Shown here one piece after another: positions 7,986 to 9,521 of a stretch of 41,142 nucleotides of DNA. Made by a program: the position numbers and the translations under genes. The DNA comes from an uncultured Spartobacteria bacterium (lineage in GTDB: Bacteria; Verrucomicrobiota; Verrucomicrobiia; Chthoniobacterales; UBA6821): NCBI GenBank assembly GCA_903858595.1, contig CAIOJL010000240.1, forward strand, positions 1 to 41,142, given 5' to 3'. Positions within the stretch are counted from its first letter, which is position 1. Each line of letters begins with the position of its first letter. The notes below the pieces were generated by a model. That model was not told the DNA's origin, did not search any database, and saw only the letters and a program-made list of their open reading frames with translations.

Positions 7986-9521
7986 TTAACCGTTCAGAGT
8001 GTATCCTTCCTCGCCATGGTCATGGATGTCGAGTCCTTGTGATTCGATTTCTCCACCGGGTCGGAGTCCAACCAGTGCGCGGACGATGAGAGTGATGAGC
8101 AGCGTCGCGGGAATGAGGAGAAGGAGGGTGATGCCGATCGCCTCCAACTGGACAAGCCAGAGGGTATGACCTTTCAGGGCGGCCTTTAAGCCATTGGTAG
8201 AGGCGGCGCCTCCAAGGAGATTAGGATTGGCGACGGAGGTAGCCAGGATGCCCGTGAGGACCAGACCGACCGTTCCTGAGACACCATGGACGCCGAAGAC
8301 ATCGAGCGTGTCGTCGTAGCGAAACGCCCGCTTGAGCGTCGTGCAGGCCAGATAAGAGATCAGGCCTGCGGCAGCCCCGACAAGCACCGCGCCTCCAGCA
8401 TCCACAAAGCCGCAGGCCGGAGTGATCCCGACCAGACCGGCCACCGCGCCGGAACAGAAGCCCAGGACGCTGGGCTTGCCTCGCTGAAGAAACTCCGCAA
8501 GGGGCCAGACAAGAGAGGCGGTGGCTGCCGCAAGCGTGGTGGTGAGAAAGGCATTGGCGGCGATGCCATCGGCGGCGAGGGCGCTTCCGGCATTGAACCC
8601 GTACCAGCCGACCCAGAGAATGCCTGTGCCGACCGAGGCGAGCACCATGCTATGAGGCATCATCGGTTCACGGCCGTAGCCACGGCGTTTTCCGAGGACG
8701 AGACAGAGGACGAGAGCTGACCAACCGCAGGCCATCTCAACTACCATGCCGCCCGCGAAGTCGATCGCCGGGATGGCCGCCTTCGGATTCCAGACGCCGT
8801 TCATGAGGCCTGTGGCACCCCAGACCATGTGGGTGAGCGGGATGTAGACGAAGAAAAACCAGAGAAAGGCAAAGACAATGACCGCGGTGAATTTCATCCG
8901 CTCCGCCGAGGCCCCGAAAATCAGGACCGGCGTGATGATCGCGAAGGTGAGTTGGAAAATGCAGAAAACATTCTGCGGAATCCAGAATGCGTAGTCGGTA
9001 TTCGGCAAGCCGTTCACTCCCTTCAGGAAAAAGAACTCAGTTCCCCCAAGGAAAGGACTGACGGCATGGGCGAAGCCGGAGGCTCCATCAGCAGCAAAGC
9101 TCCTCCCGAAGACGAGACTGTAGCCGACGGCCCACCAGATCACAGTGATGAGGGCGGTGATGCCAAGACAGAGGGCGGCCATGGAGAGGACGTTCTTCTG
9201 ACGGACCAGGCCGCCGTAGAAGAGCACAAGGCCCGGGAGGGTCATGAAGAGAACCAGCCCCGCGGAGACCATCATCCACGCGGTGTGCGAGGGGGAGGCT
9301 GCAGGGGCGATCCCAGTTGGCGATGGGTCGGAGTTGCTCCGTTCCGCATCGGCGTAGTCCATGCGCTGCTCGAGGCTAGGGCTGGCGCTTGGGGAGGGAA
9401 CCGCGGAGGTTGCTGCGGCCTTCACGGAGAACGGGGATGCGAGAAGCAGGCAGGCGACAAAGAAACGGGGGAGAGAATGGTGCACGATGGAGAAGAAGTT
9501 GCGGGTTTTTACCCAAATCAT
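7986..9521 (-). CDS. amt: Ammonium transporter with Glu/His pore pair, copy 1
   Basis: The product is 511 residues with a signal-like N-terminus, a Pro/Ser-rich linker to about residue 78 and the 11-helix Amt core. Recognisable parts are [13 protein letters not shown] (95-107), the substrate Asp254 in IDFAGG, AHMVWG-like THMVWG, and VFGVHG with the second pore His412. The residue that should be the first twin-His is Glu262 ([10 protein letters not shown], codon GAG), whereas copy 2 has His. Glu at this position is known from a fungal Mep subgroup and changes transport properties. The C-terminus ends [12 protein letters not shown], the GlnK-contacting tail. No sigma-54 site is visible in the short gap behind the terminator at 9599. 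Confidence 0.93.

Follow-up and report, generated by a model that had tools for sequence, protein, structure and literature searches.

A change of the first pore histidine to glutamate has arisen convergently about 20 separate times among the ammonium transporters (Amts) of bacteria and archaea, nearly always in an extra copy, and this conclusion is well supported. One such protein, AmtE, is encoded in the window, by which we mean the whole 41,142-nt stretch of contig CAIOJL010000240.1 from an uncultured Spartobacteria bacterium that was analysed. The protein itself is a known Amt; what is new is the Glu variant in prokaryotes and its repeated origin. The sole natural variation of the twin-His pair had been described as the Glu of fungal Mep proteins (eLife 2020, PMC7447429), the fungal Glu had been called the only common natural variant (PLoS One 2013, PMC3647058), and its role was called unclear in 2022 (PMC9040831). 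In the open literature we found no earlier report of prokaryotic Amts with Glu at the first position, most subscription journals being outside the search.

The amtE gene occupies positions 7986-9521 on the minus strand and encodes 511 amino acids; the plus strand across the same interval is interrupted by stops. PF00909 spanned its full profile (355 bits against a curated cut-off of 23.2), and TIGR00836 scored 391 against a cut-off of 343. Alignment to E. coli AmtB placed codon 262, which is GAG (Glu; 8736-8738, minus strand), at AmtB H168, and H412 at AmtB H318, the second twin-His position, which confirmed the two residues given in the preliminary description, where the strand had been left unstated. 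The remaining pore landmarks were all present, with the Phe gate formed by F193 and F309 (AmtB F107 and F215), the S1 site containing W234 and S313 (W148 and S219), and D254, W306 and T367 aligned with AmtB D160, W212 and T273. In the twin-His pair AmtE has Glu at the first position; its membership of the Amt family is given by profile and fold, and the Glu is the defining trait of the variant. The N-terminal extension of the protein resembles a signal peptide and its core is the helical one of Amts; the C-terminus is ordinary, and no output domain was found there (the domain search gave PF00909 only, and the protein stops after the Amt profile). The AlphaFold model had a mean pLDDT of 90.3, and its nearest solved folds were AmtB structures, including 2NOW (Foldseek TMt 0.93 to 2NOW), which was also the best PDB sequence match and is an AmtB chain whose residue 168 is Glu, from a set of twin-His mutant structures.

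A canonical paralogue, amtH, lies at 10036-11544 on the minus strand, and profile and alignment verified the neighbouring His/His pair (H255 and H405) that had been reported for it. The two proteins are 64% identical, and a whole-genome search found no Amts other than these two. A gene for a PII protein follows each of them, glnK1 (7604-7942, minus; PF00543, 119.6 bits) 43 nt 3' of amtE and glnK2 (9654-9992, minus; PF00543, 113.6 bits) 3' of amtH, and the order of transcription is amtH-glnK2-amtE-glnK1. Between glnK2 and amtE, the predicted fold at 9600-9633 (minus) is an intrinsic-terminator-like hairpin with a 15-bp stem, a UUCG loop and a U-run (z = -4.2 for the fold of 9585-9660), and 5' of amtH there is a predicted sigma-54 promoter, TGGCACGGGGGTTGCT (11592-11607, minus), with 0 mismatches to the consensus; both came from targeted checks, and the generic promoter and terminator scan listed neither. 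Just 5' of this promoter is a 16-nt perfect inverted repeat (11615-11681, arms 11615-11630 and 11666-11681), which may be an activator site of the NtrC type or a hairpin. The sigma-54 site was found at a constant distance 5' of every amtH of the genus with readable upstream sequence, with 0-2 mismatches, and the same search 5' of all six amtE copies of the genus found none. Because the sigma-54 site is on amtH only and the predicted terminator lies between the genes, the amtH and amtE units are probably transcribed separately. The lack of a sigma-54 site 5' of amtE says nothing on which promoter serves amtE.

Within the genus, GAG was found at codon 262 in all 6 species with an intact amtE, whose proteins were 81-94% identical to that of the window. 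A base-calling error at this codon was thus ruled out, and the His codon that resequencing might have returned, according to the preliminary description, is contradicted by the same six species. The change from His to Glu takes two base changes (CAY to GAR). The dN/dS of amtE was about 0.04-0.12 in genus pairs with unsaturated dS, similar to that of amtH, and amtE is under strong purifying selection in the genus. Searches of 16 genus genomes found amtH in all of them, one as an N-terminal part only at a contig end. The fate of amtE was more varied: it is a broken pseudogene in G021 (locus L255, 6298-7634), a C-terminal remnant between two glnK genes in G012 (L254, 1967-2164), and gone in G010, G016, G007 and G015 (L268, L269, L270 and L275), where glnK1 is intact beside glnK2; in G013 it lies on a different contig. 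Thus, amtE was present early in the genus and has been lost repeatedly, and amtH has been retained. In the Verrucomicrobiota tree the Glu clade of the genus was sister to the single His Amt of a neighbouring genus (support 95/90), so either the genus changed from His to Glu after its split from that neighbour or the neighbour reverted.

Glu/His Amts were found across many bacterial phyla and in archaea, so a one-genome oddity was ruled out. Scanning 84,980 species genomes for the exact pattern DFAGGxVV-Glu gave at least 119 matching stretches, and the 119 listed contained about 100 Glu/His Amts; once the relatives were included, 104 of the extracted Amts could be read at both sites and were Glu/His, a few of them being duplicate views of one gene. 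The hosts belonged to Actinomycetota, Verrucomicrobiota, Planctomycetota, Pseudomonadota, Cyanobacteriota, Bacillota and the methanogenic archaea, and culturable hosts included Clostridium magnum, Desulfosporosinus, Arthrobacter, Streptomyces and Methanobrevibacter. Pattern matches in G104, G316, G318, G321, G327 and G582 and the VVE match of G107 were not Amts and were excluded from the counts. The motif undercounts Glu Amts, as the true Glu Amt of G107 has VIE in place of VVE. Phylum samples, from which genomes used as search centres were excluded, contained Glu in 2 of 63 motif-matched Amts of Actinomycetota (198 other genomes) and in 0 of more than 110 of Pseudomonadota (149 other genomes); among 289 Verrucomicrobiota genomes the Glu motif occurred in 4, two of these being Amts (the window's own genome and G182), and the His motif in 77. 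The Glu form is therefore uncommon, at 0-3% of motif-matched Amts in the three phylum samples. In two of these samples only His or Glu was found at site 168 of motif-matched Amts, and neither Asp nor Gln.

Several hosts and proteins had further peculiarities. Host names from acidophiles or acid habitats were frequent (Streptacidiphilus, Actinacidiphila acididurans, Acidiferrimicrobium, Rhodopila, Acetobacteraceae and Desulfosporosinus metallidurans, among loci L003-L121), as read from the names and without a background comparison; a pH-related role of Glu Amts is possible. The planctomycete G309 has four Amts (L195, L229, L223 and L251), two with Glu, one His/His and one with His whose residue at AmtB S219 is Asp. 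The S1 serine (AmtB S219) is Gly or Ala in some Glu Amts, such as those of Desulfosporosinus, Acetobacteraceae-like bacteria and Arthrobacter (L204, L059, L085, L221, L238 and L072), and this replacement should weaken external NH4+ binding. The Glu Amt of Sulfurihydrogenibium yellowstonense (G328, L216) has an in-frame TGA, which may mark a pseudogene or a sequencing error.

We searched 44 pattern hosts genome-wide and fetched their paralogues, which gave 47 Glu genomes in all with the window's genus included. A His/His Amt was also present in 45 of the 47, and the other two, G182 and G328, had further Amt pieces at contig ends with the site unreadable. A glnK gene lay within 700 nt of 30 of 75 Glu forms versus 66 of 73 His forms (p 5e-11, a generous value because related sequences are non-independent); in the window's genus glnK is retained beside the Glu form.

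The number of origins was estimated on a 145-row tree of prokaryotic sequences only, in which AmtB columns 166-170 were masked. The His/Glu label needed 21 changes, 17 of them forced by supported branches, and shuffled labels needed about 48, so the Glu label is clustered yet far from a single origin. A two-state Mk model gave about 21 His-to-Glu gains and 2 reversals; the figure of 21 is approximate, since the tree was a quick one with some long branches and its rows were picked for holding Glu forms. Glu was maintained through whole clades in many lineages. In the bootstrapped Verrucomicrobiota tree the Glu forms fell in four places, and a single Verrucomicrobiota Glu clade was rejected (p-AU 1e-47); amtE grouped with the His forms of Verrucomicrobiota. 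The survey and phylogeny that had been proposed in the preliminary description thus yielded a recurrent convergent class in bacteria and archaea.

Other pore-helix sites changed together with Glu. In 20 phylogenetically independent Glu/His pairs tested against a sign-flip null, Ala at AmtB-326 gave way to larger residues where Glu was present (family-wise p 0.0004), and AmtB 114, 170, 171, 238, 311 and 314 leaned the same way, each singly below family-wise significance; 14 tests reached z>=2.5 versus 1.7 expected by sign-flip. AmtH and AmtE differ at six of the co-changing sites (S257/A264, S258/C265, T325/A332, A398/T405, T401/V408 and A413/L420). In the two-lane model V314 lies within the pore's second hydrophobic region (PMC7447429). 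ScMep2 N356 and ScMep1 L338 are among the listed Mep2/Mep1 differences (PMC7048316); N356, like AmtB-326, lies eight residues after the second His (ScMep2 H348), and L338 was matched to AmtB-326 by this spacing and not by alignment.

The statement that Glu at this position is known from fungal Mep proteins and alters transport was borne out by published mutants of AmtB and Mep2, in which affinity, flux and the response to pH are changed. In AmtB H168E the Km rose from 0.8 to 12.9 mM and the current from 3.4 to 22.3 nA, about 6.6-fold; methylammonium currents went up about 12-fold with ammonium still favoured, and the K+ current in liposomes was not measurable (all PMC9040831). In yeast the same mutant gave partial K+ rescue and thus some K+ passage, which would be a cost. 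Mep2 H194E had a raised Vmax and a shifted pH optimum and acidified the cytosol as Mep1 does, with no current in oocytes, where Mep1 is electrogenic and Mep2 electroneutral; Mep1 with the His pair restored was inactive (all PMC7048316). In Dikarya a low-affinity Mep is generally accompanied by a high-affinity one (PMC3663718).

By analogy with these mutants, AmtE is reasonably probable to be a working transporter that has become the high-capacity, low-affinity and more electrogenic partner of a high-affinity AmtH induced by nitrogen starvation, a prokaryotic parallel of Mep1 and Mep2; its kinetics, electrogenicity and condition of use are here read from the published proteins. Glu at the first pore position would hydrate the pore and alter the handling of the NH4+ proton; the outcome would be a raised Km, greater flux and transport that carries charge and acidifies, in the manner of AmtB H168E and the Mep1 of fungi. 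L420, V408, A264 and C265 could make room for the acidic side chain and perhaps restrict the leakage of ions; because native proteins carry such co-substitutions, the mutant kinetics may not transfer to them. AmtH, under presumed sigma-54 control and with its own GlnK, would scavenge ammonium in nitrogen starvation, and AmtE, with a putative promoter and a GlnK of its own, would serve other conditions, with more ammonium or another pH. Prokaryotes would have arrived at such a two-transporter arrangement about twenty times in parallel. More generally, we regard it as likely that His to Glu is a repeatable route, taken some 20 times in prokaryotes besides the fungi, by which a duplicate Amt turns into a partner that differs in mechanism from its His/His counterpart, through a small shared set of co-substitutions centred on AmtB-326.

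Four other readings were weighed against this partner role. That a second copy merely lets the first pore position drift, with Glu among the tolerated residues, would fit the growth on ammonium that persists after single H168 changes in AmtB and Mep2 (PMC3647058) and the dispensability of amtE, of which several species of the genus have no copy left or only a decayed one. Drift is nevertheless unlikely, since the site went to Glu alone, a step of two base changes, and neither Asp nor Gln turned up in the two phylum samples, and since amtE is under strong purifying selection, matching substitutions recur at other sites and Glu is held across whole clades. The "common and neutral" variant named earlier as a refutation is likewise not what was found: the form is uncommon, recurrent and, in the genus, under purifying selection. 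We also considered a single origin long ago, with the Glu paralogue then passed between lineages by transfer and its signal obscured through gene conversion with the local His gene, as several pairs are tandem and hence conversion-prone and Amt genes are frequently transferred (PMC3663718); this is highly improbable, because within the Glu/His pairs, that of the window included, there was no dip in identity around site 168, the one-clade hypothesis was rejected in Verrucomicrobiota, and reversals were about 2 against 21 gains.

The preliminary description had also proposed that the paralogues differ in affinity, pH dependence or sensing. Distinct jobs for AmtE and AmtH are very likely, given their promoter type, the terminator, their retention and their pore-helix sites; the sensing part of the proposal found no support. 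Sensor Amts do exist (Ks-Amt5, Sd-Amt1), and amtE adjoins its own glnK, which outlasts amtE loss, but a sensor or transceptor that reports ammonium through GlnK instead of transporting it in bulk is an unlikely reading of AmtE, whose pore residues are intact, whose C-terminus is ordinary and carries no fused signalling domain, and whose class has glnK alongside less often than His forms do; in fungi, moreover, the signalling form has His, and Glu abolishes signalling (PMC7048316). It is just as unlikely that AmtE mainly shifts substrate or direction, towards uptake of methylammonium or other amines or release of excess ammonium: the methylammonium currents of AmtB H168E and the unchanged S1 residues, through which cations would still be recruited, speak for it, but the mutant still favours ammonium over methylammonium (PMC9040831).

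The independent prokaryotic origins, each accompanied by a His/His Amt that serves as its control within one cell, are natural replicates for asking how affinity, proton handling and selectivity depend on the twin-His pair, and the co-substitutions point to partner residues of the Glu that are open to testing.

Compared with known systems, AmtE shares with E. coli AmtB the fold, 41-46% identity, every pore landmark and a GlnK partner, but its Glu comes with Leu, Val, Ala and Cys at AmtB 326, 314, 170 and 171. AmtB H168E of 2NOW has the same Glu, engineered there and natural in AmtE. The sensors Ks-Amt5 and Sd-Amt1 are distant homologues (25-26% identity) that carry output domains, which AmtE does not. 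In Ks-Amt5 the His pair is intact and the pore is occluded (PMC10433425), neither of which is a trait of AmtE. Fungal Mep1 and Mep3, like AmtE, have Glu at the first His, retain the second and stand alongside a His/His paralogue (Mep2); ScMep1 is reported to have Glu directly before the second His (PMC9040831), whereas AmtE has V411 before H412. Unlike the fungal proteins, AmtE is prokaryotic and has a GlnK partner, and its Glu form arose many times independently.
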